This document shows, one piece after another, positions 1-21,410 of a stretch of 28,372 nucleotides of DNA; position 1 is the stretch's first letter, and each line of letters begins with the position of its first letter. This stretch comes from a virus. Position numbers and translations under genes: made by a program. The notes below the pieces were generated by a model, which saw only the letters and a program-made list of their open reading frames with translations, had not been told where the DNA came from and searched no databases. The stretch spans positions 1 to 28,372 of the IMG/VR virus record IMGVR_UViG_3300025771_003806; one strand, given 5' to 3'.

Positions 1-405
1 AGCGTATTTGTCGGAGTCACCGATGGAGTATTTGTCGGCGTATTTGTCGGCGTTAAAGTTGGAGTTACTGACTGAGTTGGAGTATTAGTCGGCGTATTTG
101 TAGGTGTTACCGATGGAGTATTTGTCGGCGTATTTGTCGGAGTTAAAGTTGGAGTTACTGACTGAGTTGGAGTCGTAGTTGGAGTCGTAGTTGGTGAAGT
201 ACCTGGAGTTGACGTAAATGTCGGTGTTGGTGTATTAGTTGGTGTTGCAGTTGGCGAAATAACTGGAGTTAATGTAGGTGTTTGAGTTACCGAAGGTGTT
301 GGTGTTGGTGTAACATCAATAGTCGGTGTTATAGTAATCGTAGGTGTAACTGTTGGAGTAACACTTTGTGTTGGTGTAATAGATGGTGTAGGTGTTGGTG
401 TTACG
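1..405 (-). repeat. Degenerate T-P-x coding repeat with a 90-bp tandem unit
   Basis: The plus strand carries many copies of short units such as ggagtatttgtcggcgt, which read on the minus strand as Thr-Pro-Thr-Asn-Thr-Pro. A longer unit starting cgatggagta at 21 recurs at 111 and matches over about 63 bases with one change (21-83 against 111-173), so the period is 90 bases. Towards base 405 the units become more diverged ([12 protein letters not shown]). The array lies inside an open reading frame and keeps it. Confidence 0.85.
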
Positions 406-956
406 TTTTGGAAGTTACAAATAAATCTTCTAGGTGGTCTCGTACTAATTCCCGTAGCACCACTAATAGCGAAATTAGTATTCGTACATGTTTCATCTAA
501 AAGTGAATAAACTGTTGATGCACTTAAAGAAGTCGTTCCTGTTGTAGAACCACTTAAAATAGGTATTGAAGGTGTAAAGACTACATCACTACCCGATGTA
601 ACACCTAAAGTATTTGTGAAATTTACAGTAATATCTTCTGACGCAGCACCGTCAGCAACAACAGTATAAGTTGCTATAGTACTACCTTCAGTCACATTGA
701 CAGTGATTACATATCCTATGTAGGCAACAACGTTTTGAGTAACAAGCAAGTCATTACAACCATCTTGAGTATTAATAACTGAAAGAGTATACTCAGTACC
801 AAAAGTAGAACCAGGTAGTGTTACTACCACACCTGCAATCATTTGGTCCCTCGTTTGATTAACCTTTATAGGTGTTCCTGATGTTGAACCTGAATATATA
901 TCAAAAGGACCTATTGCATTAGAATCTAATGTAAGTCTTACTATAAATTGCGCCAT
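1..956 (-). CDS. Pro/Thr-repeat tail or surface protein, partial (C-terminus off left edge)
   Basis: The ATG is at 956-954 and the frame stays open to base 1, giving 318 complete codons without a stop, so the C-terminus is missing. Residues 1-180 or so look like a beta-rich globular domain (starts [14 protein letters not shown]) ending near [12 protein letters not shown]. From about base 405 to the edge the protein becomes a Thr/Pro repeat of the type [15 protein letters not shown], with a 90-base (30-residue) higher-order tandem unit. Such stretches act as extended, often glycosylated, stalks or linkers in other proteins. It is the last gene visible of the tail module, behind a 72-base gap holding an inverted repeat and a TATTTAT element. 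I infer an accessory fibre or virion-surface protein; no catalytic domain is visible. The open frame is certain, the role is not. Confidence 0.8.
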
Positions 957-1028: not shown

Positions 1029-1250
1029 TTACTGACAGGGCAAGATTTCAAAATATTCGCAGTTGTTACTATCTATGATTTTCAACATTACGGAGGGCGC
1101 ACCATTAAAAAATGGTGATAAAGTAAAATCACCTGTAGGTGATGCATCTGTTGTTAGGAAGGTACAATTATTACCATTTCCATCACAAACATACAATGTG
1201 TAAGGTGCAGCCGCACCACTAATTGAATTTATTGTAATTTTAGATGCCAT
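1029..1250 (-). CDS. Small single-domain SprB-repeat-like structural protein
   Basis: A 73-aa protein with no signal peptide or membrane segment. Its pattern follows one SprB-type beta-sandwich repeat: an N-terminal strand (KITINSISG), an AAPYTLYV segment matching the usual G.PPYTY motif, an aspartate/asparagine turn (CDGNGNNC), and a closing strand with DSNNC that matches the T.D..GC end of SprB repeats. Its ATG at 1250 shares one base with the stop of the preceding SprB-repeat gene (TAATG), so the two are probably translated together. It looks like a detached single copy of the domain repeated in the gene before it. I infer a small tail-tip or decoration protein. Confidence 0.7.
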   Translation of the reverse strand: MASKITINSISGAAAPYTLYVCDGNGNNCTFLTTDASPTGDFTLSPFFNGAPSVMLKIIDSNNCEYFEILPCQ

Positions 1251-3559
1251 TATGTAACGCAGTTTACATCATAAGTTATCTGTAATTTAATTGATATTCG
1301 TGCACCTTTTAAAGGGTCACTATCACCATCACAGTCTGATTTTATTATAATTGTATTATTTAATAAATCTATAGTAACACTTCCAACTTCTGATATTCCA
1401 TTTAAAATACCTTCAACGGTACTTATCCACAGATTATCCGTTGGAACCGAATTTAATGTCGTCGCAGTGTAAAATGGTACTGTATCACCACTTATCCAAC
1501 CTGTTGACCCTGTAATCGAAACGTCTGCACTAAAAATTGCAGTATCCAATACACAGTTGGTTCTTCCCGATGTAACATCCAAAAATCCTTCATTAAGCAT
1601 TTTCTTCATACTTCTTTTAGTGTTTGATGTTGTTTCAAATAATTGATTACACACACCAACAACACTATAAGTTGTTACGGTTTCTCGGTCACAAACTATC
1701 GTTACACTTTTTTTCTTAGCACAGCCATCACTATCCGTTACTGTGACATCGTAAGTGTCTCCTGATAAATTTGTTATGGTAGAACCAGTTTCCCCATTAC
1801 TCCATAAATATGTGAATGGTGGATTTCCTTTAGTAACTACAACTTCTGCAGAACCATCATTACCCAATACACAATCGGTACCAAATAATGAAAAATTAAT
1901 ACCAGATGAAACCGGTATACTTATCGTTTTACTGACAGAACAATTAGCATCATCTGTAACCGTAAGAGTATAAACACCAGGTGAAAGATTGTTAAATGTA
2001 AATGCACTAAGGCTAGTATCTATAATTTGTTGACCATTACTTAAAACATAATCTAAAGGTGAGGTATATCCAGTACTTACAGTCGCTTTAACAATACCAT
2101 TGTTACTACCACATGTTGAACCTGTTACACTCGTACTAACAGTGAATTTATCGGTAGAACTTATTGTTTTTGTTGTTGTATAAAGACAACTACTACCAGT
2201 ACCTGAAATTGAAATCAAATACGTATCGTTGGCTAAGTTTGAAAATGTTGCACTTTGTGAAGTTGTGGTTGTTGTATTAAAAACACCTGTAGTCTGTCCC
2301 GATATTGAATAGACATAATTATTAGATAATGTACCAGATATAATTATGTTTATAGAACCGTTATTACTACTACAATTCGAATTCGTAACATTTATACTCA
2401 CCACATCAAAACCACCAGGTGCCACTATGTTAGAACCAAATAATCCTTTACATAAATCATAATCAGTAACATGTAACTCATAATACCCCGCAGTTAATCC
2501 TGTTAAAGTATATGTTCTTGAATTACTATATTCAACTTGACCTGTACTCCCCGAATAATAAAAAGGAAGTGTACCACCTGTTATTGTAAAAGTTAATGAC
2601 CCATCTGAAGTAAAACAACTTGGTGTTGAGGCAGTAACCGAACCCAACCCTAATTGTGGTGTTAATGTTATTGTATAACTTTTAGTTACCACACACCCTA
2701 AAGAATCTGTAACCGTAACCGAATAAGTACCAGGTGTCAATCCTGTAATACTATCAGTTGTATTACCATTGTTCCATAAGTATGTGTATGGTCCAACACC
2801 TGTTTCACCAGTAACTGTTAACTTACCCTGATTTTGAACACAGAATGAACTTTCAACCACCCAAAAACCAAAATCTAATTCTGTCGACGCAGAAACTAAT
2901 ACAGTTTCAGTGTGTGCAGTAGCACCTCCTGAATCTGAAATTTTAGCGTGATATAACCCACTTGGTAAATTTAATATTTGATATGGAAATGACCCAGCAA
3001 TTTCACCTCTATAAAAAGTATCACCACTATATATCTGAATGTCGTAAGGTGCTGAAGTTGAAGAGCCACTCACCCAAAACGAACCATTATTATTTCCACA
3101 TGTTGTTCCTATAACATCATATATTTCACCACAGAAACAATCAGAAATAATAACATTCAGTAAAAGTTCTTCGTTATCAGGAGCAGTACTATCATTAATT
3201 TGCCATACATACGTTCCACCTGTCAATCCTGTAAAAACAAATGGTCCATTACTCGCAGCACCTGAATATGCCGGAATACCAGGATACACATTAAAGATTG
3301 AATATGGTTGAACAGCACCATTAGGTTGGATACTAACCGCACCATTACCAACATTTTCACAAACGCCAGTTACCGAAAACGTCGCATCTAATGCACCACA
3401 AGTAACAGTACACGCATTAGTACTAACAGAAATACCCGAATAAGAATATGCGGTATCCAAACAGATATCAAAACCCGCATTATAACCCGTCTGTAATACA
3501 CCACAACAATCGGTATATCCCCACGTAGTTCCTGTAGTAACACCTGAAAAACAAGCCAT
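1250..3559 (-). CDS. Large SprB-repeat tail protein, candidate adhesin
   Basis: 769 aa counted from the ATG at 3559, which forms a TAATG overlap with the stop of the preceding gene; an in-frame TTG nine bases upstream is less likely. The centre is a chain of about seven Ig-like repeats. Two are canonical SprB repeats: about residues 255-289 (PYTYLWNNGNTTDSITGL, then TYSVTVTDSLGC) and 577-613 (PFTYLWSNGETGSTITNL, then YDVTVTDSDGC). The others, near 85-125, 168-210, 325-370, 405-458 and 495-540, keep the Y.l.V.D..C ending. The N-terminus is Cys-rich (YTDCCG, ACTVTC). About residues 645-769 form a separate module also found at the end of the neighbouring 982-aa wedge protein. SprB repeats are known from the gliding adhesin of flavobacteria. 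I infer a tail-fibre or receptor-binding role. No signal peptide is seen, as expected for a virion protein assembled in the cytoplasm. Confidence 0.8.
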   Translation of the reverse strand: MACFSGVTTGTTWGYTDCCGVLQTGYNAGFDICLDTAYSYSGISVSTNACTVTCGALDATFSVTGVCENVGNGAVSIQPNGAVQPYSIFNVYPGIPAYSGAASNGPFVFTGLTGGTYVWQINDSTAPDNEELLLNVIISDCFCGEIYDVIGTTCGNNNGSFWVSGSSTSAPYDIQIYSGDTFYRGEIAGSFPYQILNLPSGLYHAKISDSGGATAHTETVLVSASTELDFGFWVVESSFCVQNQGKLTVTGETGVGPYTYLWNNGNTTDSITGLTPGTYSVTVTDSLGCVVTKSYTITLTPQLGLGSVTASTPSCFTSDGSLTFTITGGTLPFYYSGSTGQVEYSNSRTYTLTGLTAGYYELHVTDYDLCKGLFGSNIVAPGGFDVVSINVTNSNCSSNNGSINIIISGTLSNNYVYSISGQTTGVFNTTTTTSQSATFSNLANDTYLISISGTGSSCLYTTTKTISSTDKFTVSTSVTGSTCGSNNGIVKATVSTGYTSPLDYVLSNGQQIIDTSLSAFTFNNLSPGVYTLTVTDDANCSVSKTISIPVSSGINFSLFGTDCVLGNDGSAEVVVTKGNPPFTYLWSNGETGSTITNLSGDTYDVTVTDSDGCAKKKSVTIVCDRETVTTYSVVGVCNQLFETTSNTKRSMKKMLNEGFLDVTSGRTNCVLDTAIFSADVSITGSTGWISGDTVPFYTATTLNSVPTDNLWISTVEGILNGISEVGSVTIDLLNNTIIIKSDCDGDSDPLKGARISIKLQITYDVNCVT

Positions 3560-6507
3560 TATTGACAACTAATCGTTATATCTATCCCCACGTTTAAGTA
3601 AAGACGTTTATTCGTGAAATCATCGTAACACGATGAGTTCGCTATAATAATAGTATTACCATTTATAAAATAGTTAAGACCATCTTGGTATAAGTATTCT
3701 AACTTTTCATCTAAAGCGTTAATCCAATCAGAATTTGTTGGTACATCATTACCCCCATACCCTGTATAGAATTTTTCTTGTACCAATATATCACTATCCA
3801 ATCTCAAATCCACATACCACTGACTCGTGATTGTATTCATATTACAAACAGTATACGCTGATGATATTTGAGCAACCACATCTGTTAACATTTGTTGGAA
3901 ATTACCCGCAGTTGTTGTTGAAGAACTTTCCAACCACGGATATACACTACAAGTTATTGTTTGGTCTATACAATCGTAACCCAATATCTGTCCATTGAAC
4001 TCACAAGGAACACAACTAACAGGAATTATCTCACAACCCCTCTGTCTTCTCCATCTTACTTTCTGTCTGTGGAAGGCTGAGTTCTCCATCTTTTGTCCAC
4101 CCATCCAAATCGTAGATGCCGGCAATACCTGTTCTACCAATCTCATCCAATAATCACCAATACCCAATGTATAATCAATCATCTTTTGATAAGTGTACTT
4201 ATTAGATGGTATATTTACCGTTGCTTCAGAATTTAAGTAGTTCTCATACAATCTTTGTAGTTGTGGGTATCCACCACCCTTACCATCACTTATAGTTTGA
4301 CGGTTTCTTACATTAATCATATTGTGATAGAAACTTTGAGCAAACTCAAAGAACGTTTTTTCCTTTGGTTTGGGGTCAATAACTGTCCAATCCACCCCAT
4401 TTGGGTATGGATTAGTTAATCCTGAATTAGGAATAGGGTAATCGTACTTTCTTGACATGTCCCACACATCATACAATAGACCCTGACCCATATTCATATA
4501 TAAATCTATGTTTTTGGCATTTAAAACCAACCTCTCATCACTCACACGGTAGTAAGTATTGAAACCTGCGGTCGTATTTTTTCTTAAATGTTGGTCTTTA
4601 GACCAAGATTTTTGATTATCGTACTCTCTAGTGAGTTCATAACCCATATTAAGATAGGGGAACTCTCTAAATGTATCAAAATATTGTTGACCATAAGTAA
4701 ATGGTTGTAAAACAGTCTGAGAATCGGGGTTTGAACCTGTATATTTAGTTGCATTTACCTGATTCACCTCAGGTGACCTGTGATATTCAGTACTTCTATA
4801 CCAACCTGCACCCAATTCAAAAGGAACATTAGCAGGACTTACAGGATATCCGTTAGAATCAACAGGAAAATCAGGTCTTGTTAGGTTTGTTATCCTAACA
4901 ACCGAATCTGTAGTAAATCCTGTATAAACAGTACCTCTAATTTTAAATGTGTTTGTTGAATCTAACGTTGGTGTCTCATCATTATACGTACCACCTGAAA
5001 TTTGAAGGTATTTTTGATTAAATTGGTCCATGTTTATTGGACCATCAGCTAAATAAACTATCTCATTAAATTCAACCAACGCTTCAGGAGCACCAATAGA
5101 CCTCATTACCCATTGGACAGCCTTAGCGGTACCTTTTGATTTGAATAGGTAGGCAGAATTTAAAATTAAATTTCTATAAAATTGAGAATTAAGTTCATTA
5201 GGTGTTTTGTCTCTTGTTTGACCAGGGTATATGGATTGATTCTTTGTCCCAAATACAGATTCTAAGAAATTATCATTTGTAATTGGTGATATATCAGTAT
5301 TCCAACCTAATGTTAGTGCTAAATTGTATAATAATTGTGAAGGTATATCATCTTTTGGTACATAATTTACTGAAGTAATATATCCTAAAGCATCAATGAA
5401 TTTTTTTGTTTCATCAAAACTTCTTCCGTATAATTGTAAAACTTTTTCAACTTTTTGGTCTTCAGTATCAAATTCATGAAACGCACCCGTTGTTAAAAAA
5501 CGACTAATTAAATTAGTTTTATAATCGTCTAAGTCTTCGGCAATATTATTTAAGTTGTTAAGATAGTTTTCAAACTTATTAGTTCTAATATCTAAATTCC
5601 ATAATCCATCTAAAGCCCACGTCACTAATCTATCAAGTATCTGATATCTTCCATCATCGTCAGAAACAGGTACCTGAAATTTAGCAGTATATTTTGGTGT
5701 AACTAACCTATTCAATAAGAAATCTTCAACTTCATCAAATGGGTCTTGAAATGCCTTTTCAGTTTCAAACTTACTTGGTTTAATAACAATACTATCGGTC
5801 GTTGAAGAAGCACCTGAAAATGGATTACCTTCAACAACAAAGGTAACGGTACCCGCTGATAATTTTGTTGATGGTGTATAATCATAAACCAAATACTCAG
5901 TCTCCATGTCATTAACATAGATAGCATATTTACCATATTGTGTGGTTAAATTTCTTAGCGGACTAACCTCTAATGGTCTTACTGAAATATTTCTCGTCGC
6001 ATTTACAGAATAATCAATATCAAAAGGATTTTTAAAACGACTAACATCAACAGTAAAGGTTGTTAAATTTTCTTGTAAATCGTAACTAATATTATTTGCA
6101 GTATTTGCCGTACTATAATTGTAATAAGTACTATCAACTTGAATGGCCGCAGGAAAATAGTTAATTATCTTTGTAACTGACGCACTAAACCTTTTTTGTA
6201 GTGAACCGTATAATGTAAAATTAGTAACTTGACTAATATCGTAATTCGGATAAACTCTATAGTTTTTAGCTGCGATTACTCTGGACTCTAATAATCCATT
6301 TACATTTAAATCATCTAAACTTATTGGTGATGAGAATACTCCTGTGTTGAAACTTCTATTAACTTTTTCAACAACGGAAGTGGTAAATTCAAAATTACCT
6401 TGCGTAAGACCTCCCCCATCGACAGTTTGTAATCCTACAATGTCGTCAGAAAAAGTTCCACTACCATTACCAGGAGCAGGAGGATATCTGTACTTATTAC
6501 TCGCCAT
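3559..6507 (-). CDS. Baseplate wedge protein, gpI/gp7-like
   Basis: 982 aa, close to the 1032 aa of T4 gp7. Residues about 350-480 have the signature of P2-type tail protein I: LLYNLALTLGWN (392-403), then FYRNLILNSAYLFKSKGTA (443-461) and VQWVMRSIGAP (464-474), matching the usual LA..LGWD and KGT..a....l...G motifs. In contractile tails the gpI/gp7 protein joins two gpJ/gp6 subunits in the wedge, and a gp6-like gene is present in the same module. The N-terminal 340 residues are beta-rich and unrecognised. A Cys cluster (C825, C832, C835, C846, C853) precedes a C-terminal module of about 114 residues shared with the next gene. It starts with ATG at 6507, one base overlapping the preceding stop, and its own stop overlaps the next ATG. 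The wedge role is an inference from motif, size and context. Confidence 0.7.
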   Translation of the reverse strand: MASNKYRYPPAPGNGSGTFSDDIVGLQTVDGGGLTQGNFEFTTSVVEKVNRSFNTGVFSSPISLDDLNVNGLLESRVIAAKNYRVYPNYDISQVTNFTLYGSLQKRFSASVTKIINYFPAAIQVDSTYYNYSTANTANNISYDLQENLTTFTVDVSRFKNPFDIDYSVNATRNISVRPLEVSPLRNLTTQYGKYAIYVNDMETEYLVYDYTPSTKLSAGTVTFVVEGNPFSGASSTTDSIVIKPSKFETEKAFQDPFDEVEDFLLNRLVTPKYTAKFQVPVSDDDGRYQILDRLVTWALDGLWNLDIRTNKFENYLNNLNNIAEDLDDYKTNLISRFLTTGAFHEFDTEDQKVEKVLQLYGRSFDETKKFIDALGYITSVNYVPKDDIPSQLLYNLALTLGWNTDISPITNDNFLESVFGTKNQSIYPGQTRDKTPNELNSQFYRNLILNSAYLFKSKGTAKAVQWVMRSIGAPEALVEFNEIVYLADGPINMDQFNQKYLQISGGTYNDETPTLDSTNTFKIRGTVYTGFTTDSVVRITNLTRPDFPVDSNGYPVSPANVPFELGAGWYRSTEYHRSPEVNQVNATKYTGSNPDSQTVLQPFTYGQQYFDTFREFPYLNMGYELTREYDNQKSWSKDQHLRKNTTAGFNTYYRVSDERLVLNAKNIDLYMNMGQGLLYDVWDMSRKYDYPIPNSGLTNPYPNGVDWTVIDPKPKEKTFFEFAQSFYHNMINVRNRQTISDGKGGGYPQLQRLYENYLNSEATVNIPSNKYTYQKMIDYTLGIGDYWMRLVEQVLPASTIWMGGQKMENSAFHRQKVRWRRQRGCEIIPVSCVPCEFNGQILGYDCIDQTITCSVYPWLESSSTTTAGNFQQMLTDVVAQISSAYTVCNMNTITSQWYVDLRLDSDILVQEKFYTGYGGNDVPTNSDWINALDEKLEYLYQDGLNYFINGNTIIIANSSCYDDFTNKRLYLNVGIDITISCQ

Positions 6508-7415
6508 TAATTAACTACGTTTGAGAAGTTTTTACTAAAATCAATATTATCACCTCTATCCTGACGTACCTCAAATAATAAGTTGTTAAACTCATCTCTA
6601 ACCTCAAACAAGTTGTATTGTTTGTAAATGTTGTTTTGAGTGTCGTAAATTGTGTAAATACCGTCTTCAATACTCTTAGTCTGATTACCGTAAAGAGCAA
6701 TACCCAGAGTGTCGAGGTCGTAGTTTGCTACTTGTATGTCAATACTCATTGGATTGAAGAATGTATTTGTCATTATAATGTTTTGGTTCGGCTGACCTAT
6801 GTATGGTGTTGCAGATGGTTTGTTTGTCGGAGCACTTGTTGGTGATACCGTACAGAATATCAAATCACTACCACTATCAACATATCTATAACGGATAGCC
6901 TTTTGTGAGGTGTTAACTAGGTTAGTAACTACAGGTTCACAGAAAAACGAAGATGTTATAATTCTATAGAAATTAGGAATTTTTGTACCGTCTTGATTTA
7001 AATATTCGATTCTAAAACCAACAAGACCCTGATTTGTGAATCTATTTCTATATTGTGACGGAACATTATTTAAATCAATGATAATACCTTTTACGTTAGG
7101 AAGTGAAGATAAAACACCACAATCTGTTATTGTAGTTCTAATTTCTGCCGGTCTAATATAAAGTGTATATACACCTAATTTATTAAACTCCGTTGCCGGT
7201 AATTTGAGATTATACAAACCACCTAAGATTTCGATACCTGAATTTCCACCAGTTTGGTTATTGTGAAAATAAGGTGTTAAAATGCTGGCTGTGTCTAACT
7301 TTTTTAAAGTAAAATTTTCTGTTACGTCTCTTGATGGAGTATAATTAAGAATTATCTCTACATCTTCAGGAGACATGTCTGCTGGTCTTGTTGTTCCGTA
7401 TGTTCCTAACGCCAT
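6507..7415 (-). CDS. Tail structural protein of unknown fold, with a short Pro/Thr linker
   Basis: 302 aa, cytoplasmic, no membrane segment. I do not recognise the family. The N-terminal 200 residues are beta-rich (LGVYTLYIRPAEIRTT, KGIIIDLNNVP, GLVGFRIEYLNQDG). A short linker VSPTSAPTNKPSATPY (about 193-208) recalls the Pro/Thr repeats of the left-edge protein. The C-terminus is mixed, with YDTQNNIYKQYNLFEVRDEF. The ATG at 7415 lies one base after the stop of the preceding gene and its stop forms TAATG with the wedge gene, so it is translated in series with baseplate components. A virion structural role, perhaps a wedge or fibre-attachment part, is inferred from location alone. Confidence 0.65.
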   Translation of the reverse strand: MALGTYGTTRPADMSPEDVEIILNYTPSRDVTENFTLKKLDTASILTPYFHNNQTGGNSGIEILGGLYNLKLPATEFNKLGVYTLYIRPAEIRTTITDCGVLSSLPNVKGIIIDLNNVPSQYRNRFTNQGLVGFRIEYLNQDGTKIPNFYRIITSSFFCEPVVTNLVNTSQKAIRYRYVDSGSDLIFCTVSPTSAPTNKPSATPYIGQPNQNIIMTNTFFNPMSIDIQVANYDLDTLGIALYGNQTKSIEDGIYTIYDTQNNIYKQYNLFEVRDEFNNLLFEVRQDRGDNIDFSKNFSNVVN

Positions 7416-7416
7416 T

Positions 7417-8490
7417 TTATTGTTCGTTTATGTTGTAGAAACCATATCCATAACGGACAAGGTCTCCGATGTTATCGACTTCTGACAGTCTCTGTAATCC
7501 TTCGAATGCCGAATTCTTACCTCTCTCAATAAATATTTGTGATTGTATTTCTGGCTGCATCGCTATGTCTAATAAATTTTCTTCTTTTGTTAAACTCACG
7601 GCAACCAAGTCATTTGATGTGAATCCTGATGATTCTACTATGAATAATGTCCTCCCATTAGGGTAATCATAATATACTATACCGTTAATTGTATATGATG
7701 TATAAGCATCACCTATAGTTAATACTCTACCATATTCCTGACCATCTTTAAATATGGTTACAGTCGGGTCATACGGTGGATTTCCATAAACTTTTAAGTC
7801 AGTTAATTTTGATTTAGTAAATCCTGTAACTATGTATGGTACGGTAACATAATTTGAACTTACCTGTTTTGACACAGTGTTCTCAGCATCACCACTAAAA
7901 ATAAAATTGTACGATGATAAAGTACCTGACCAATTACCTCCTTGGGATACAAAATTTACCGTACCCTCAGGATTATCCACAGTTACACCTGTCATAGGTA
8001 TAGATATTGGTTTTGTAATTGTTGTAGTACCCCACGGATTTGTTTGTATAAGTTTGATATCATAATCACCTATAATCTGTTGGTAATTGTGAGTAATACT
8101 CGATAGTGTCATGTTCTCAACATTAGTACCATCACCCCAATCAACCCGATATGTTGAAAATTGATTTACACCAATAAATTCATCAGAAGTATTATATAAA
8201 GTAATATTATATTTGTTGGCGGTAGTTGCTGAATATAAGAAGTTGGTGATTACGTTGTATTGTAACATAAGACCGTCAAAAGGAGAATAGTATCCCATAT
8301 CATTAAATGTCTCAGTAAACACAACAGGTATCGTTAAACCTGTTAATAAACTACTACCACCCGTACCACCACTTAGAATTTCAGACATACCTAAGTACAC
8401 CCCAAAAGTATTACCACTAAGAGTTTCATTTACAATATCACTACTTAAAACTTCGGGTGATATTCTGATATATTGTGTATCTGTATTCAT
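7417..8490 (-). CDS. Tail structural protein with a PKD-like domain
   Basis: 357 aa. Residues about 108-166 look like a PKD/Ig-like domain: YRVDWGDGTNVEN (114-126) contains the characteristic WGDGT, followed by SITHNYQ (131-137) matching the usual H.Y, and GDYDIKLIQTNPWGTTTI (141-158) matching the G.Y.V.L.v.n..G closing strands. PKD domains are protein or sugar binding beta-sandwiches common in surface proteins. The regions before and after are Gly/Ser/Thr rich and unrecognised. The ATG at 8490 overlaps the preceding stop as TAATG. I infer a fibre or baseplate-peripheral protein. The PKD call rests on motif reading alone. Confidence 0.65.
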   Translation of the reverse strand: MNTDTQYIRISPEVLSSDIVNETLSGNTFGVYLGMSEILSGGTGGSSLLTGLTIPVVFTETFNDMGYYSPFDGLMLQYNVITNFLYSATTANKYNITLYNTSDEFIGVNQFSTYRVDWGDGTNVENMTLSSITHNYQQIIGDYDIKLIQTNPWGTTTITKPISIPMTGVTVDNPEGTVNFVSQGGNWSGTLSSYNFIFSGDAENTVSKQVSSNYVTVPYIVTGFTKSKLTDLKVYGNPPYDPTVTIFKDGQEYGRVLTIGDAYTSYTINGIVYYDYPNGRTLFIVESSGFTSNDLVAVSLTKEENLLDIAMQPEIQSQIFIERGKNSAFEGLQRLSEVDNIGDLVRYGYGFYNINEQ

Positions 8491-9317
8491 TATGATGGGT
8501 TTACATATTCATACCATTTTATTGGGTCACTCTCAGTACCAACTCTTGTTAAATTTCCTTGTTCGTCTTCTGAGTACATACTATATTCATAGTTATCATA
8601 ATCTAAGATACATTTATAGTAGAATTTATAATCCTTATTAAATGTATATTTTTGAGTTAATTCTCCTTGACATTGATTCATCATTCTTACAAATTCTCCA
8701 GTCTTAGCATTAAAAAACTTAGCACTCATATAGAACTCACGAATATCCAAATAGTCGGTATTTTTTAACCAATAAATAAAAAACCCTTCTTTGTCACCAA
8801 TATAGTCTAATTGATATTCTGGTTTTTTTATCTCTATATCATTCTGTACTGTTGTAAGTGATAAATCAACCGTTTGAGTCTTACCTTGTTGTACTGGTAT
8901 TATAACTGTAAAATATATTTTTTGATTTTCTGACGATTTATTATCATAAAAATCCAATTTGAAAAAGCTATTAGTAAAAGAATTCGCATAATAATAAACT
9001 TCATCATTGTTAAATCCCGCACCCGAATATGAATTAGTCCATTCATCACAACTAGTCGTTGCCGTGAGTCTTATACTATTATCGAAAAAGTAAAAATTGT
9101 AATTGATGTCTGTCCTTGTTTGATTTTCATCCCAAAAAGAATGTGGAAATCTTGTAACCTCAAAATCCTGAGCAGGGTTAATTACTTCATTAATTGCATA
9201 TTCTTCATATTCAACAAAACCCTGTTCCTTACCTAAATTATCAAAATCTAACTGTATCGGAATGTTAAGTTGTTGGGTATTTGGCGATATTGTAATACGA
9301 TAATTATTCACAGTCAT
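8490..9317 (-). CDS. Tail structural protein of unknown function
   Basis: 275 aa from the ATG at 9317; a TTG three bases further upstream would add one Met-equivalent residue and is less likely. The gene begins inside the last 14 bases of the preceding gene and ends with a TAATG overlap onto the next. The protein is rich in aromatic residues and Asn/Asp (INYNFYFFDNS, VYYYANSFTNSFFKLDFYD), with a strand pair IYFTVIIPVQQGKTQTVDLS near 150. There is no signal peptide, transmembrane helix or catalytic motif. Its setting among baseplate genes suggests a virion part, but I do not recognise the family. Confidence 0.6.
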   Translation of the reverse strand: MTVNNYRITISPNTQQLNIPIQLDFDNLGKEQGFVEYEEYAINEVINPAQDFEVTRFPHSFWDENQTRTDINYNFYFFDNSIRLTATTSCDEWTNSYSGAGFNNDEVYYYANSFTNSFFKLDFYDNKSSENQKIYFTVIIPVQQGKTQTVDLSLTTVQNDIEIKKPEYQLDYIGDKEGFFIYWLKNTDYLDIREFYMSAKFFNAKTGEFVRMMNQCQGELTQKYTFNKDYKFYYKCILDYDNYEYSMYSEDEQGNLTRVGTESDPIKWYEYVNPS

Positions 9318-11031
9318 CAACTATTGGTAGATTTATTGTTTGATAATAAATACCCTCAGTGTTTCTTAGTATTGGTGTTTGTAAGAAAAGAATATTTTTA
9401 AATGGATAATGTGAATTATTAATAAAAGGATTATCAACACCAATACCATCTCCATCTGTAAAACCGTAAGGATAAAGGTCTCTCCACCTCCATTGGTTAT
9501 CATTTTGTGAGTAATATGAATATTCAGGCACATTATCAATTTCATTCTTATTTCCTGTCTCAATATAATCAGAAAAAGCCCTTATAGGAACCTGATAGTG
9601 TGGTCGATAAGCATAACCTGAAGGATTGTCAACTGAACTATTATTTTGGAAAATCTCGGGGTTAAAACTATATTTGTGATACAATGGTGATAATATAATC
9701 TCTTTTTGTTCATAATCATTCCATTCACAAATGTCACCCTTTAAAACATGTCCTTCAGTTAATGTTTGATTGTAGTAAAATGTAAAACTATCTTTTACAT
9801 AAGAAGCGACGGGTATGTTATCTTTGTTGTCTAACGAATCGTGATTCCACCAATCGTCTTGAGTTATACTATCAAAATTAAATTCCCAACCAATGTCAAT
9901 AGCAGTATTATCGTTTTGTGAATATGGTTTATTAAACCAACCCATATAACCTTTATTTAAAATAGTCACAAATAAATCTGTAACAGGTTTTGAGTTGTTA
10001 TCTTTTAGTCCTGTAATGTCAATATCTTTATCAAATGAAAAAGTAAAAACTTGATTACCCTGTTTGTAAGATATTCTTTGTACCCTGTTTGGTGTCAACC
10101 CACTATACTCTAATTTTCTTCGTGTTGTAAAGGCAGTATTTTCAAAACCACCTTTAACTAAATCAGCTTCATCACCACTTGTTAATAATTTATGTAACCT
10201 GATATAATATTTTGATGTGGTCTCACCCGTATTATTTATATCTATAATTCTCTTTAACGTACCTGTAGTATTGTCTTGAAAATTACCACTCCCATACCCA
10301 ATATTATAAATTGAGAATACTCTTCTTTCTGAATCGTAATATTCATCACCTAATGAAAATACCGAAAAAGTATCTTTACCATTAACCGTAAAACTTAATT
10401 TAACATATTCACCAATACTTAAATTATGGTCCATTGAACAATAAAAAGTTATCATTGGTTTACCATTAAAAAACGTATTTTGTATAATAAATGGTATCCC
10501 TTCAGATACTTCTTTAGCACCAACAGTAGTACCAAACCTTGAACTTGTATAACTTATTTTTTGTTTCGTATCACTACTAAACGGATATGATATATAAATG
10601 TTCCAATTATAAGTTGACGAACTTTTAGGTATAAAAGTAGTATGTCCTGATATTCCTTGCTCCCTAACAAAGGTAAACTCTTTATATTGTGGGTATCCTC
10701 TCCAAACTTCATCTTCAGGTATTCCTTTAGCGTCATTTATAGTTTTTTCAGGATTTAAATAATATAAGTCATTTTTAAAAGGGTTATATGTAGTTTTACC
10801 ACTAACACTATTATTTATAATATTTGTTATTTTACCCGCAATTCTAAAGATATTACTTTGTTGTCTTTCCTCGTCAAATCTTTGAGCTAAATTCAAGAGT
10901 ACTGTTCGGTCACCTTGAGTATAATTCTGCTGAGTTGATTTAAAAGGAACTTGGATAAATAATTCTTTATCTGAATTACCTTTAAACCTTTTAGAACCTG
11001 GAATATATATTATTTCGTTTTGATTACCCAT
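9304..11031 (-). CDS. Large tail structural protein of unknown function
   Basis: 575 aa with no family I recognise. It begins MGNQNEIIYIPGSKRFKGN and is dominated by Asn, Tyr, Asp and Ser with many short strands. Examples are GKPMITFYCSMDHNLSIGEY near 190-210 and VFTFSFDKDIDITGL near 330. A Trp-rich stretch (DIGWEFNFDSITQDDWWNHD) falls near 375-395 and another (NDNQWRWRDLYPYGF) near 520. No membrane segment or enzyme motif is visible. The ATG at 11031 shares a base with the stop of the 1635-aa gene (TAATG), and its own end overlaps the next gene by 14 bases. The coupling and composition fit a baseplate or fibre component. Confidence 0.65.
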   Translation of the reverse strand: MGNQNEIIYIPGSKRFKGNSDKELFIQVPFKSTQQNYTQGDRTVLLNLAQRFDEERQQSNIFRIAGKITNIINNSVSGKTTYNPFKNDLYYLNPEKTINDAKGIPEDEVWRGYPQYKEFTFVREQGISGHTTFIPKSSSTYNWNIYISYPFSSDTKQKISYTSSRFGTTVGAKEVSEGIPFIIQNTFFNGKPMITFYCSMDHNLSIGEYVKLSFTVNGKDTFSVFSLGDEYYDSERRVFSIYNIGYGSGNFQDNTTGTLKRIIDINNTGETTSKYYIRLHKLLTSGDEADLVKGGFENTAFTTRRKLEYSGLTPNRVQRISYKQGNQVFTFSFDKDIDITGLKDNNSKPVTDLFVTILNKGYMGWFNKPYSQNDNTAIDIGWEFNFDSITQDDWWNHDSLDNKDNIPVASYVKDSFTFYYNQTLTEGHVLKGDICEWNDYEQKEIILSPLYHKYSFNPEIFQNNSSVDNPSGYAYRPHYQVPIRAFSDYIETGNKNEIDNVPEYSYYSQNDNQWRWRDLYPYGFTDGDGIGVDNPFINNSHYPFKNILFLQTPILRNTEGIYYQTINLPIVDDCE

Positions 11032-16010: not shown

Positions 16011-17849
16011 TTATGAGAAAGAAACACCCTTTAAGTCCTTAACTCTAACAGTAATGTCTTTATTCGGGAATCTAACCTGATAAATTTGATTAGGTTGAGC
16101 AAAAATAGTATCGTCAATCAATTCAATTTGTTTTGTTGCCGAGTTAGAATATCTTTGTGATGTTTGTGATGACGAGTAATCCCCACCCGTCCTATTAAAG
16201 ATACTAATATCTGATAATGAGATAACACCTGAAACGTCTTGTACTATTCTTCTAACTTCTGATACATTTAAATTTTGACCTAATTCTCGGTTCAATGAAC
16301 TCATATATTGTGAAAGTTGATTTACAATTTCTGTAATTACTTGACCCTGATTTTGTGTTGACTCAAATACAACAGATAAATCAAACGCTAAATCAATAAC
16401 TTGAGCACTTGTAATTTCAACATAGTCATTTATCATTCTATAGTTTGATAAATAAGTCGCCACATTATTTCTTAATGTATTAGACAACACTTCGGTTAAT
16501 TGACCATCAGCATCGTAAGCCAACATTTGAACAACTATTTTATTATTGTTTTCAGTAATCCCTACTTTAGCAGGTGCCCCGAATTTACCAGGCATTGTTG
16601 CAATCAATGTTTGATAATCATTTACCGTAACTGCTCTTTTTTGTGATGAGAAGTTAAAACCAACCATGTTTCTTACTTCTTCAGTTGTTGGTTGATTAGC
16701 ACCACCAATAGCTGCGGTAACATTATTCACAGTTAATGAATTACTAACTGTTTGGTTAACACTGTCTGAAGGTCCATTTACTGAGAAGTTAATAGTACCT
16801 AATTGATTAATAGCATTAACACCAATATTTGATGATGTACCACCACCAATTCTATATTGAATGAACAATGTAGTATTTGGTGTAACTGTAAGACCTAAAC
16901 CAATATTATTTTGGTAATCTTGAATTCTCATCGGAATACCTGTTTGTGAGAATTGTGCTAATTGTTGGTCAGGAGTTGTTGTACCACCACCAAAAGTCAT
17001 CTTTAAGAAACCTTCAGGTGTATATTCTGAAATAAATCTATTATCTGTTTCTAACCACTTACCAACTTTAACACCAGCAGAATCTGCAGGTTTTGTTGGG
17101 TCCTCAATAAACACTCTTGACTCAGCTAATGCATCAACCTCATACCATTTATTAGGTGAACTTATAAATTCTGAATATGTTGGTGTGGCTTGATAATTTG
17201 TCCCATCCTTTTGTATTACTGAAGTTATACCTAAAACATTTCTTTCAGGTAAAAATATTTCATAAAAAGGAATAACATCACTTGGATTGATAACCTGTTT
17301 AAAAACTTTTGTTATACCATTAACGACAGTTTCTCTTTTTGTTATGGTGTAGTTAATTAGTTTATTATTGGAATCAAAATTAGGAATTTTGATTCTATTT
17401 GGAAACCCACTATTATTATATGGTGAGGCAAAATCAATGTCATAAACATTTTCAAATGTTTGTCCTCCACCAACAACTTGAGAACCCGCTCTTAGAATAC
17501 CCAAATATCTTGCATCTTCTTTATCACCAAATGCTGGTACAGTGATTGAAAAATCTACCATAGAAACTGAAGGTCTGTAACCAGGTATTTTTAATCCGTA
17601 TGTTCTTGCAATGTTATAAACAGATGAACGCTGTTGTGCATATTGTAATACAGTCTCTTGGATACTACGGTCAATGTGGTAATGTAAGTTATCACCAATG
17701 GCTGCGTTAAGGTCTAAGAATACAGAAAATACTGAAGCATCATTGAAATTATCAATAAGTTCAGGATAGTATTGTCTAGTGTAATTTATGAGGTCCTGTC
17801 TTAAACCTTCAAAATCTCTTTCAGTATAAGATATTTTTTTATTTGCCAT
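16011..17849 (-). CDS. Baseplate wedge protein gp6-like (Baseplate_J family)
   Basis: 612 aa, against 660 in T4 gp6. The N-terminus ISYTERDFEGLRQDLINYTR followed by YPELIDNFNDASVFSVFLDLNAAIGDNLHYHIDR is the characteristic start of gp6/gpJ-type proteins. The later segment KRAVTVNDYQTLIATMPGKFGAPAKV (about residues 408-433) matches the conserved gp6 core. The C-terminal part (about 470-560) has the alternating helix-strand pattern of the family. In T4, gp6 forms the ring that holds wedges together in the contractile-tail baseplate. The preceding gene encodes gp25, its usual partner, with only six bases between them. Family confidence is high. Confidence 0.92.
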   Translation of the reverse strand: MANKKISYTERDFEGLRQDLINYTRQYYPELIDNFNDASVFSVFLDLNAAIGDNLHYHIDRSIQETVLQYAQQRSSVYNIARTYGLKIPGYRPSVSMVDFSITVPAFGDKEDARYLGILRAGSQVVGGGQTFENVYDIDFASPYNNSGFPNRIKIPNFDSNNKLINYTITKRETVVNGITKVFKQVINPSDVIPFYEIFLPERNVLGITSVIQKDGTNYQATPTYSEFISSPNKWYEVDALAESRVFIEDPTKPADSAGVKVGKWLETDNRFISEYTPEGFLKMTFGGGTTTPDQQLAQFSQTGIPMRIQDYQNNIGLGLTVTPNTTLFIQYRIGGGTSSNIGVNAINQLGTINFSVNGPSDSVNQTVSNSLTVNNVTAAIGGANQPTTEEVRNMVGFNFSSQKRAVTVNDYQTLIATMPGKFGAPAKVGITENNNKIVVQMLAYDADGQLTEVLSNTLRNNVATYLSNYRMINDYVEITSAQVIDLAFDLSVVFESTQNQGQVITEIVNQLSQYMSSLNRELGQNLNVSEVRRIVQDVSGVISLSDISIFNRTGGDYSSSQTSQRYSNSATKQIELIDDTIFAQPNQIYQVRFPNKDITVRVKDLKGVSFS

Positions 17850-17855
17850 ATACTA

Positions 17856-18317
17856 TTAAATATTGATAATTATAAAATCTTTTGACTCAAATGCCTTATC
17901 ATCAACACTGTAATCAATTCTTAATTTTGCTGTGTATTCTTCAGTCCCTTTTCCAGGTATTCTATAAACCGCACCACCAATCTTCTCATAATTCAACTCA
18001 CCTTGTGCCTCTAAATCGTCAATATATGGTGTTAAGGTGATGTCTTTTATTGTCAAATTTGGAATGAATTTATCTACCGCCTCTCTGATATCTGCCTTAA
18101 TGGCTTCAAATGTTGGTCCATCCATTGGTTCGAATATAAATTCATATATCCTCGTACCAAAGTCAGGTAGGTAGTATCTAGTACCCTTTTTAGTAAGAAT
18201 TAAATGTAAAAGGTCCGTCCTTATCTCTTCAACACTACTCTGTGAAAGAGATAAATACTTTCCTTGTAAACTATCCCTAAAAGGGAAATTAACACCGTAT
18301 GTAAAACCATCTGCCAT
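17856..18317 (-). CDS. Baseplate wedge subunit gp25-like (GPW_gp25 family)
   Basis: 153 aa, slightly longer than T4 gp25 (132 aa). Residues about 25-70 contain VEEIRTDLLHLILTKKGTR followed by YYLPDFGTRIYEFIFEPMD, the conserved gp25/gpW core with the LPdfG..i.e..fE motif. The C-terminus is a strand-rich tail ending KDFIIINI. gp25 seeds sheath assembly and binds gp6 in the baseplate of contractile tails, which shows that this phage is a myovirus. Lysozyme activity sometimes attached to this family name should not be assumed. This is the first gene of the tail module, 31 bases beyond the terminator that closes the ribonucleotide reductase genes. Confidence 0.92.
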   Translation of the reverse strand: MADGFTYGVNFPFRDSLQGKYLSLSQSSVEEIRTDLLHLILTKKGTRYYLPDFGTRIYEFIFEPMDGPTFEAIKADIREAVDKFIPNLTIKDITLTPYIDDLEAQGELNYEKIGGAVYRIPGKGTEEYTAKLRIDYSVDDKAFESKDFIIINI

Positions 18318-18402: not shown

Positions 18403-20109
18403 TTATCCTTCACACGCAACACACTGAAGGTCGTTCAATCCCAATTTCTTTCTTGCGAAAGCTTGAGCCGAATTCATTGAGTGTTGATAGTATAATGTCT
18501 TAACTCCCAACTGCCATGCGTCGATTAGAAGTTTGTTAACATCCTTAGTTGGCATGTCAGGTGAAATCATTAAGTTCAACGACTGTGCTTGGTCGATGTA
18601 ATCTTGACGAACCGCAGCCATATTGATAATTGATGCTTGGTTAATTTCAGAAAAAGTTCTAAACACATCTTTTTGTTCGTCAGTTAAGAAATCCAAATGT
18701 TGAACTGAACCGTCAGCCTTCTTAATACTGTTCCAAACCTCTTTAGTGTCTTTACCTAATTCAACCAATAGATTTTTAAGTATTGGATTTTTAATAGTCA
18801 CCTTCATTTTAGCAACATCCTTCACATAACAATTAGACCAAATTGGTTCGATTGATTGTGATACTTGACCTAAGATAAAGGCAGATGATGTTGTTGGTGC
18901 AATAGCATTCAATGTAACATTTCTTCTACCGTACCCAATCAAAGTTTCAGGTTCACCAAACATTTTAGCCAATTCTTCTGACGCTTTGTATGATTTATTT
19001 TTAATAAGTTTAAACACCTCAACGTTTAATCTTGCCGTTTCTCTTGTATCAAAAGCCAATCCTTTTGATTGAAGTAGTGAGTGCCAACCCAATACACCTA
19101 AACCTAATGCTCTTTGTCTTTTAGCAAAATTGTATGCCTTTTCTAAATAAAAGAATGCTCTTTTACCTTCAATGGTACCATTGTCACGAATGTCTTCAAT
19201 CTTTGTTAAGAATTCAGTAACAACAGCATCTAAGAACATTGTCATAGTCTCAACCGCATCTGTGTCTTTCCACTCATCATAATAAAGTACATTCATAGAT
19301 GAAAGAACACAAACAAATGATTCTTCTTCTGAGTTATGAAGAGCAATTTCAGAACAAAGATTTGAATTATAAATCTTCATACCTTTGTCTTTATAAACCT
19401 CAGGCGCCTTATTGTTCATGGTATCATGGAACATAATGTATGGATACCCAATCTCACCACGTCTCTGAATTACCTTAGCCCATGTCGCTCTCTTTTCTTC
19501 GTCACCTTCAATCATTTCTTTCATGAATTGGTCAGTAACAGTAACCGCGTGTGTCAAATCTTGGATAGGTGCTCCTTCAGTACCAATCTCAAGGAATTCC
19601 ATAATATCAGGATGTTCTACAGGAAGATATGGTGAAAATCTACCTCTACGTGTTGAACCTTGGGAAATGTTATCTACAACACTTTCAAACAAATTCATGA
19701 AGTGTACTGAACCAGGTGCGTGTCCGTTGTCGGTAATCTCAGCACCTCTTCCACGAATGTTTCCGAAGTATCCTGAAGTACCACCACCCATCTTACTCAT
19801 TTCTCCAACTTCCGCTTGTGTATATAAGATAGACTCAATATTATCACCAATATTAGAACCAAAACAACTTACAGGTAAACCCCTCTTTTTTCCAAAGTTT
19901 GCCCAAACAGGTGATGATAGTGAATACCATCCTTTACCCATATAGTCGTAAAATTTATCGGCAAACCCTTCAATACCTAATAGTTTTTCTGCATGGTCTG
20001 CAATAGTTCTAATTCTATCCAAAGGTTGTTCACCTTCACTTAAATACCCTCTACGGAGAAACGTGATTGATTCATCGTTAATCCAATCGAAATCTTTTCT
20101 ATTATTCAT
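18403..20109 (-). CDS. nrdA: Class I ribonucleotide reductase large subunit, without ATP-cone
   Basis: 568 aa; bacterial NrdA is usually 750 aa or more. It reduces ribonucleoside diphosphates for phage DNA synthesis. Catalytic features are intact: C82 (LPVSCFG) and C267 (SFVCVLSS) as the redox pair, N250-C252-E254 in NLCSEI as the radical site, Y540-Y541 in KTLYYQH as the radical-transfer tyrosines, and C563/C566 in the C-terminal tail CVACEG for re-reduction. The GGGTSGYFGNIRGRG motif (108-122) is also typical. The sequence starts directly at the catalytic region with no ATP-cone; that domain sits on NrdB instead. The gene follows nrdB by 20 bases and is closed by a strong terminator. The start has an A-rich leader and no Shine-Dalgarno. 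All motifs argue for an active enzyme. Confidence 0.95.
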   Translation of the reverse strand: MNNRKDFDWINDESITFLRRGYLSEGEQPLDRIRTIADHAEKLLGIEGFADKFYDYMGKGWYSLSSPVWANFGKKRGLPVSCFGSNIGDNIESILYTQAEVGEMSKMGGGTSGYFGNIRGRGAEITDNGHAPGSVHFMNLFESVVDNISQGSTRRGRFSPYLPVEHPDIMEFLEIGTEGAPIQDLTHAVTVTDQFMKEMIEGDEEKRATWAKVIQRRGEIGYPYIMFHDTMNNKAPEVYKDKGMKIYNSNLCSEIALHNSEEESFVCVLSSMNVLYYDEWKDTDAVETMTMFLDAVVTEFLTKIEDIRDNGTIEGKRAFFYLEKAYNFAKRQRALGLGVLGWHSLLQSKGLAFDTRETARLNVEVFKLIKNKSYKASEELAKMFGEPETLIGYGRRNVTLNAIAPTTSSAFILGQVSQSIEPIWSNCYVKDVAKMKVTIKNPILKNLLVELGKDTKEVWNSIKKADGSVQHLDFLTDEQKDVFRTFSEINQASIINMAAVRQDYIDQAQSLNLMISPDMPTKDVNKLLIDAWQLGVKTLYYQHSMNSAQAFARKKLGLNDLQCVACEG

Positions 20110-20129: not shown

Positions 20130-21410
20130 TTAAAACAAGTCGTTATGTGTAATTGACTTACTTTTCTTACTGTAATTGATACTTCTCTTATTGAAGAAAT
20201 CTGTATGTTTTGTTGTTAGAATCTCATCATCAAACCATTCAGTAGTTTCTAATAGTTTTTCATCAACATGGAAAATACTGTCAATACCTATAGAGTTTAA
20301 TGATAGATTAAAACGGTGTTTAATAAACTCTATTGTTTGTGATTTAGTTAAGAAATCTAAATCTCCCTCTTCAAAAATCCAATCAACAATATCTGACTCA
20401 GCACTAAACGCTTCCATAGTCGCATCAATCAAATCTTCAACTAATTCAGGTGTCCACCATGATGGGTTTTCTTTTTTAATTAGGTTAACTAAATCAAATC
20501 CAAACTCAGCGTGAATGTTTTCTTCTTTTGAAGTTGCTTCAACCGCATTACTCATACCTTTCAACATGTTTTTGTGTTTGTTAAATGACATAATAACAAG
20601 GAATTGTGAGAACAATGAAACGTTTTCTACAAACATTGAGAATAATACTACCGACTCAAAGTAATCTCTGTTTTCAACTGACTTTGAGTGAATAATTGAT
20701 TTTTCTAAATACTTGATTCTTTTTCTGATTGCAGGAACTTGTAGTAGACTTTCGAACTCACTATTCAATCCTAATACTTGAATTAAGTTAGAATAAGCGT
20801 CTGCGTGTCTTACTTCAGACTCAGCGAATGTTGCTCCAACATTACCAATTTCAGGTTTTGGCATTCTCTTATAAATGTCACCCCAAAATGTTTTTACCGC
20901 AATTTCAATTTGTGAAATAGCCAACATTGCTCTTTGTACTGCCGTTCTTTCTGCATCTGATAAGTGTACTTTAAAGTCCTGAATATCTGATGTGAAGTTA
21001 AACTCAGTGTGTACCCAATATGAGTGTCTAATAGCATCTACATATTCTACCAACTCAGGGTATTCATAAGGTTTCAAATTTAATCTTTTAGAGAAGATGT
21101 CAGGTCTATGTTTAGAACGATAAATAATGTACTCTCTAGCAACATCATTTAGACCGTTATCCATCAACTTATTCTCAACCATCTCATGGATTTCATCAAC
21201 ATGAGGTACTCTATCTTTGTCCTCTCTGAATAAACTTTTTCTGGCAATTCTTGCAATTTTTTCAGCCATTTCATGGTCAACCTTATCAATACTGTTCATT
21301 GCTTTGGTTACCGCATTTTTAATTTTTTCTTCTTCAAATAAAACTTTTTCCCCACTTCGTTTAATTACGAAACGAGCATCTTTTTCTTCTAAATTTACGA
21401 GGTTATCCAT
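20130..21410 (-). CDS. nrdB: Ribonucleotide reductase small subunit with N-terminal ATP-cone
   Basis: 426 aa. Residues about 12-104 are an ATP-cone (FVIKRSGEKVLFEEEKIKNAV at the start, VPHVDEIHEMVENKLMDNG and REYIIYRSKHR at the end), the domain that senses ATP/dATP. The rest is a ferritin-like radical subunit. Probable metal ligands are E169, E199, H202 (SEVRHADAY), E262, E297 and H300 (EENIH), and Y206 sits where the stable tyrosyl radical is found in E. coli NrdB (Y122). An ATP-cone on NrdB is a known alternative to one on NrdA and works by changing the oligomeric state of the small subunit. It lies between the helicase gene (14-base gap) and nrdA (20-base gap), in one transcript. Confidence 0.94.
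   Translation of the reverse strand: MDNLVNLEEKDARFVIKRSGEKVLFEEEKIKNAVTKAMNSIDKVDHEMAEKIARIARKSLFREDKDRVPHVDEIHEMVENKLMDNGLNDVAREYIIYRSKHRPDIFSKRLNLKPYEYPELVEYVDAIRHSYWVHTEFNFTSDIQDFKVHLSDAERTAVQRAMLAISQIEIAVKTFWGDIYKRMPKPEIGNVGATFAESEVRHADAYSNLIQVLGLNSEFESLLQVPAIRKRIKYLEKSIIHSKSVENRDYFESVVLFSMFVENVSLFSQFLVIMSFNKHKNMLKGMSNAVEATSKEENIHAEFGFDLVNLIKKENPSWWTPELVEDLIDATMEAFSAESDIVDWIFEEGDLDFLTKSQTIEFIKHRFNLSLNSIGIDSIFHVDEKLLETTEWFDDEILTTKHTDFFNKRSINYSKKSKSITHNDLF

Follow-up and report, generated by a model that had tools for sequence, protein, structure and literature searches.

What does a protein built of SprB-type repeats, the repeats of a gliding adhesin, do in a virus? The question is raised by a 769-aa protein encoded on IMGVR_UViG_3300025771_003806, a virus contig of 28,372 bases with 33% GC, whose whole record is the stretch of DNA analysed here (the window). 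According to PHROGs, the window carries gp6-like and gp25-like baseplate wedge genes and both ribonucleotide reductase subunits, and it also encodes a DnaB-like helicase, a UvsX-like recombinase and a single-strand-binding protein, a gene content that indicates a T4-like myovirus. The window is a fragment of a T4-like jumbo phage lineage whose relatives reach 318 kb: an IMG/VR scan with the 769-aa protein gave 27 loci, on contigs up to this length, with a gene order identical to that of the window wherever it could be read. The 318-kb relative (L016/G001) contains terminase, portal, maturation protease and capsid genes. The reading that we favour, and hold to be rather probable, is that the protein is a baseplate-attached tail arm of Bacteroidota jumbo myoviruses, a rod of fixed length made of seven SprB-type Ig-like domains and anchored via a duplicated docking domain. 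What was observed directly is that the protein contains SprB-type repeats whose number and order are fixed, that its gene keeps a conserved neighbourhood, and that its C-terminal domain has a counterpart in the protein encoded upstream.

Seven SprB-type units without the features of a gliding adhesin

The ORF runs from an ATG at 3559 to a stop at 1250-1252, and its start overlaps the stop of the upstream gene (TAATG). A Pfam-A search detected PF13573 (SprB) in the protein with a total of 56.7 bits over three stretches, found in the window search at 1787-1873 (40 bits), 2759-2842 (29.4 bits) and 2537-2635 (23.4 bits); the curated cut-off of this family is 28 bits, so the first two pass alone and 2537-2635 lies below it. 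The same profile gave no matches in 14 control genomes. The protein was divided into seven units of 74 to 86 aa, followed by a C-terminal domain:

1250-3559, minus strand: candidate tail-arm gene with seven SprB-type units, 769 aa (PF13573, E = 1.8e-15; modelled as seven beta-sandwich domains and a C-terminal domain)
3383-3559, minus strand: Cys-rich N-terminal segment, residues 1-59, present only in part of the family (alignment)
3137-3382, minus strand: unit 1, residues 60-141, diverged (19.5 bits, reached by 0 of 999 shuffles)
2876-3130, minus strand: unit 2, residues 144-228, diverged (39.6 bits, 0 of 999)
2645-2866, minus strand: unit 3, residues 232-305, near-consensus, PYTYLWNNGNTTDSITGL...TVTDSLGC (Pfam stretch 2759-2842)
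2411-2644, minus strand: unit 4, residues 306-383 (38.6 bits; Pfam stretch 2537-2635)
2153-2410, minus strand: unit 5, residues 384-469, diverged (23.0 bits)
1904-2152, minus strand: unit 6, residues 470-552 (47.5 bits)
1682-1903, minus strand: unit 7, residues 553-626, near-consensus, PFTYLWSNGETGSTITNL...TVTDSDGC (Pfam stretch 1787-1873, 40 bits)
1253-1681, minus strand: alpha/beta domain at the C-terminus, residues 627-769, with a proposed role in docking (aligned by hhalign with the C-terminal end of G982, the protein encoded upstream)

In a leave-one-out analysis, a profile made of any six units scored the seventh above all 999 shuffles (19.5-51.5 bits versus at most 14.2 bits). The original prediction had recognized SprB-type repeats here, two near the consensus and about five diverged, and it is borne out on both counts, the two motifs it quoted being those of units 3 and 7. 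In one group of the family the first unit begins at residue 60-68, and in another it begins at residue 6-11.

The AlphaFold2 model of the protein (mean pLDDT 77.6) is a chain of beta-sandwich domains ending in the alpha/beta C-terminal domain, with an uncertain domain-to-domain geometry (pTM 0.34). Among solved structures, the best matches of the array are segments of the Aureispira grappling-hook protein GhpA (PDB 9flp, 9fly, 9flw), in agreement with the proposal that the fold is like that of host adhesins. GhpA is a Bacteroidota surface protein and, like the arm, consists of tandem beta-sandwich units; it differs in being cellular and thousands of residues long, with 15-17% identity to the arm. 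Low global TM-scores (here 0.16-0.18) are to be expected when the chains compared consist of domains with flexible links. In UniProt, A0A6J5LD72, a 714-aa protein of an uncultured Caudovirales phage named 'SprB repeat', gave a full-length structural match with 33% identity, and it is likely a member of the arm family already present in databases under an automatic name. A search of open-access literature found no paper on SprB repeats in phage virions or on A0A6J5LD72.

The repeats had also been linked to SprB itself and to gliding, and this part of the prediction found no support. SprB of Flavobacterium johnsoniae is a 6,497-aa adhesin (PMC9870892) with a type B sorting domain and a partner, SprF (PMC9143113), and the PF13573 repeats are all that the arm protein has in common with it. 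The arm protein is only 769 aa long, with seven units, in a virus tail context. By inspection, no N-terminal Sec signal peptide is visible, MACFSGVTTGTTWGYTDCCG having neither a basic start nor a hydrophobic core. The type B sorting domain of the type IX secretion system (T9SS), TIGR04131, is absent, the only sorting-domain match being TIGR04183, below cut-off and inside a repeat, and there is no PorP-like sprF next to the gene, whose neighbours are baseplate-region and fibre-type genes. A gliding adhesin was rejected on the lack of visible secretion signals, the gene context and the number of units. PF13573 is a generic repeat of many Bacteroidota surface proteins, and an SprB match in a virus does not imply gliding. 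That the arm binds glycans or interacts with host SprB, as had been suggested, is speculation. In a further reading, the arm would engage the surface ligands or partners of the host's SprB-type adhesins, and virions would attach to the moving adhesins or compete with them and be carried over the cell by the gliding machinery, which we consider very improbable.

The absence of secretion signals also bears on whether the protein could act in superinfection or adhesion, being made during infection and displayed on the surface of the infected cell by the type IX system of the host. Huge phage LR756502.1 does appear to encode an SprB protein in which a type B sorting domain accompanies an apparent signal peptide; however, the window protein has neither signal and carries a structural C-terminal domain instead, so that we give this explanation hardly any weight. 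The LR756502.1 protein (L192:9325-14337, from a 642-kb uncultured phage) is 1,670 aa long, with 14 SprB stretches and a PKD domain, and looks like a true T9SS cargo; a neighbour of its gene resembles RnpA by eye.

An array of fixed number and order

Exactly seven units precede the C-terminal domain in 63 of the 64 distinct copies that include it, and six were detected in the remaining one; a few of these ORFs are truncated at a contig end behind the array. The Bacteroidota proteins recovered with the same profile contain 3 to 44 units, counts that are lower bounds for those ORFs truncated at a locus end. Between phages, units of one position are 37-57% identical, while those of different positions are 24% identical, even within one protein. 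In a tree that included cellular units, five of the seven positions formed exact clades and a sixth clade held all but one sequence; units 3 and 7 were sisters, and position 6 was unresolved. Since units group by position across phages, the array was built before the lineage diversified.

A captured host gene had been one of the origins put forward for this protein. Two units are near-consensus, and cellular relatives reach 27-36% identity in their best segment, as would be expected from a recently acquired fragment of a host sprB. The grouping of the units by position argues against such an event, as does the C-terminal domain, for which the search of cellular proteins in the Bacteroidota loci gave nothing above chance; both point to an old, phage-specific array. 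Recent capture is in our view the least probable of the explanations, and, judged by the relationships among unit sequences, the array was not captured recently and is not expanding as a repeat.

The pattern of conservation is also relevant to a second possibility, that the arm is a receptor-binding adhesin whose Ig-like units bind glycans on the host surface. Receptor-binding regions usually vary fastest. In this family the array is fixed in number and order, and unit 3, the most conserved of the seven, keeps a mean identity of 57% between phages, distant ones included. Variation sits in extensions outside the array: copies span about 680 to more than 3,300 aa through N- or C-terminal extensions beyond the array and the C-terminal domain, and these can carry DUF285, leucine-rich repeats (LRR), VWA domains or Thr/Pro-rich runs, although the window's own protein ends at the C-terminal domain. 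Ig-like repeats are nevertheless common in phage surface proteins, where they have been implicated in binding (PMC6949934), and the fold resembles that of Bacteroidota surface adhesins. We regard a receptor-binding adhesin of this kind as rather unlikely, and host-range variation should be sought in the extensions and in the neighbouring genes rather than in the array.

The closest precedent is the tail-associated array of crAssphage, which consists of eight BACON domains forming position-specific clades (PMC6949934). In both cases tandem Ig-like domains, otherwise found in Bacteroidota surface proteins, adjoin tail genes and are stable in number and order, with five of seven positions as exact clades here. 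The arm differs by its seven SprB units in place of eight BACON domains, by its occurrence in jumbo T4-like myoviruses and not in crAss-like phages, and by a C-terminal domain common to the upstream baseplate-region protein. A Pfam search of the arm protein up to E = 0.1 gave no BACON (PF13004) match. The arm would be a second case, beside that of crAssphage, of a fixed-length phage tail array derived from a Bacteroidota surface-protein domain. Several large relatives encode additional SprB-repeat proteins at sites other than the tail locus, G006 (L169) for instance at around 67-69 kb and at around 7.7 kb.

A C-terminal domain shared with the adjacent baseplate-region protein

The conserved neighbourhood of the arm gene comprises the following features:

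3559-6507, minus strand: G982, conserved 982-aa baseplate-region protein (directly upstream in 72 of 73 readable relatives)
3562-3921, minus strand: C-terminal domain as it recurs at residues 863-982 of G982 (hhalign, profile search, models)
5068-5346, minus strand: stretch of G982, at about residues 388-480, that weakly resembles the P2 gpI motif (Tail_P2_I at E = 0.21, short of the cut-off)
16011-17849, minus strand: gp6-like baseplate wedge subunit (phrog_219, E = 2e-20)
17856-18317, minus strand: gp25-like baseplate wedge subunit (phrog_261, E = 4.9e-16)

A seven-unit gene with the C-terminal domain lies directly after G982 in 72 of 73 loci and is the second gene in the last one; these are the loci with a complete next gene, some of them obtained in searches with the repeat protein, and a number of contigs are counted twice. 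When only the loci found with G982 are considered, the arm gene is directly next in about 51 of 52, and the non-matching loci were all cut by a contig end. The arm-gene start overlaps the G982 stop (TAATG) in 50 of 72. Assignment of the gene to the tail region, which had been proposed from context, is thus supported by a linkage to baseplate genes kept across relatives. The arm would be a conserved tail part of a widespread and little-studied group of jumbo phages; the IMG/VR scan with G982 matched at least 597 stretches (at least 580 relatives). Flavobacterium phage immuto and Microcystis phage Mel-JY01 both encode a homologue of G982 downstream of gp25 and gp6, the order also seen in the window.

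The C-terminal domain and its copy in G982 are additions to what had been proposed for this locus. Using hhalign, we aligned arm residues 627-769 with G982 residues 863-982 (E = 1.6e-9, probability 96%), and five other regions of G982, taken as controls, gave probabilities of at most 0.5%. A C-terminal profile built from the repeat-protein side alone recovers G982 with E-values down to 1.9e-12, and AlphaFold models made separately for the two proteins agree in the order of elements in this domain (helix-strand-strand-helix-three strands). Eight large relatives (138-318 kb) contain the domain in the arm gene and in G982 only, with two copies per record; in this count one copy was split into two matches, and the profile includes one G982 row. 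No relatives of the domain were found among the solved structures searched. On the evidence of these alignments and models, the C-terminal domains of the arm and G982 are homologous, and homology alone is no proof of physical docking.

These data can be set against the possibility that the gene encodes another part of the virion, such as a neck whisker, collar fibre or decoration protein, and lies in a tail operon by chance. Sequence-profile searches of the PDB with the arm protein indeed matched only a neck-whisker protein, gp24, and two decoration proteins, each of them weakly. However, the arm is linked through its C-terminal domain and its overlapping start to a gene of the baseplate cluster, and head genes occupy a separate region in the large relatives. 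Such an assignment is in our opinion improbable.

The fixed count and order of the units, the coupled baseplate-region gene and the shared terminal domain fit a baseplate-anchored structural arm, in which recognition would lie with the variable modules or with the proteins encoded next to it. We infer that this arm is present in the virion, where it would dock, act as a spacer and take part in host binding. The seven-domain rod would be assembled into the virion as a tail fibre arm at the baseplate, and its C-terminal domain would anchor it there, either by pairing with the C-terminal domain of G982 or by sharing its docking surface. The length of the arm would determine how far from the cell surface the baseplate is held, and contact with the host may be made by domains of the array, by the variable modules outside it or by the adjacent small and Thr/Pro-rich proteins. 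Known tail fibres are usually trimeric. The count of seven and the putative docking domain common to two adjacent tail genes lead to testable predictions on how the length of such arms is set and how they are anchored.

G982 itself may be related to gpI of phage P2. An hhalign comparison with gpI gave E = 0.0013 with a probability of 19%, the match being confined to the region of the gpI-like motif; it relied on nine gpI sequences from phage records, as the IMG/VR scan had given only near-identical P2 prophages. The likeness to the motif is suggestive, and firm membership of G982 in the gpI family was rejected because the Tail_P2_I and hhalign matches are weak and the fold search is without a match (none at E <= 0.001, from a poor AlphaFold model with a mean pLDDT of 45). 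The gene after I is annotated as a tail fibre in P2 and in five other annotated phages with J-I genes. The G982-arm pair is similar to the P2 pair of baseplate wedge gpI and tail fibre gpH in that a fibre-type gene directly follows a baseplate gene, behind gp25- and gp6-like genes. In contrast, the P2-type order W-J-I-H lacks the extra genes that lie here between gp6 and G982, and the arm is made of Ig repeats and is not a P2 fibre. From 3559 to 11031, the window encodes five consecutive conserved proteins (982, 302, 357, 276 and 575 aa) without a significant PHROGs family.

Phage host and neighbouring genes

Several lines of evidence, none of them proof, indicate that the host of this lineage is probably a member of the Bacteroidota. 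All of the best 80 GTDB loci matching the repeat protein carry Bacteroidota titles, from many groups. A Shine-Dalgarno signal is absent at the starts of the phage family (3.3% versus 2.7% in shuffles), and Bacteroidota loci likewise show no excess (5.9% versus 5.3%); P2 starts differ from both in this respect, the P2 count comprising four genes only. Among relatives of the gp6 gene whose host is known, the best (26%) come from a Flavobacterium phage and a Microcystis phage. A match to ribosomal protein bS21 was detected in five of ten large relatives, the other five being without one, and in the 318-kb L016/G001 bS21 is encoded between protease and portal, on the strand opposite to theirs. The same layout has been described in 293-331 kb myoviruses of freshwater Bacteroidetes, which have a GC content of 31-33.7% and predicted Bacteroidetes hosts (PMC9723584). 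As in those phages, the bS21 gene of L016 is on the other strand from the terminase, portal, protease and capsid genes; here the layout is known from this relative, whereas the window ends short of that region.

Ribonucleotide reductase was uninformative as to the host, since its nearest phage relatives, at 64% identity, infect Gram-positive bacteria. NrdA (18403-20109) is about 64% identical to proteins of Sporosarcina and Staphylococcus phages, unlike the tail genes, and a horizontal transfer is possible. In the NrdB-like subunit (20130-21410), residues 14-101 match the start of the NrdD family (phrog_487) and have the look of an ATP-cone. ATP-cones on NrdB occur in some Bacteroidota.

Two further genes lie downstream of the arm gene:

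1029-1250, minus strand: 73-aa single-domain protein, a minimal SprB-like unit (profile-profile comparison with the repeat units: probability 91.5%, E = 8.5e-7)
3-956, minus strand: Thr/Pro-rich stalk protein, running off the window (translation)

Proteins of the 73-aa single-unit type occur in one or two tandem copies after the arm gene in many relatives, and a similar Thr/Pro-rich gene lies within a few genes downstream of it, also in many. The Thr/Pro-rich stalk protein is probably part of the same fibre cluster. Its N-terminus was considered as a further repeat unit and rejected, the match being in register but weak (E = 0.026).

The Bacteroidota promoter TAnnTTTG is not enriched (7 versus 8.6 expected). 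Another motif, (G/C)TATTTAT, is strongly enriched upstream of genes in the window and its relatives (94 versus 16 expected for TATTTAT) and is possibly a phage promoter; one copy in the window is at 978 on the minus strand, about 20 bases before the Thr/Pro-rich gene.
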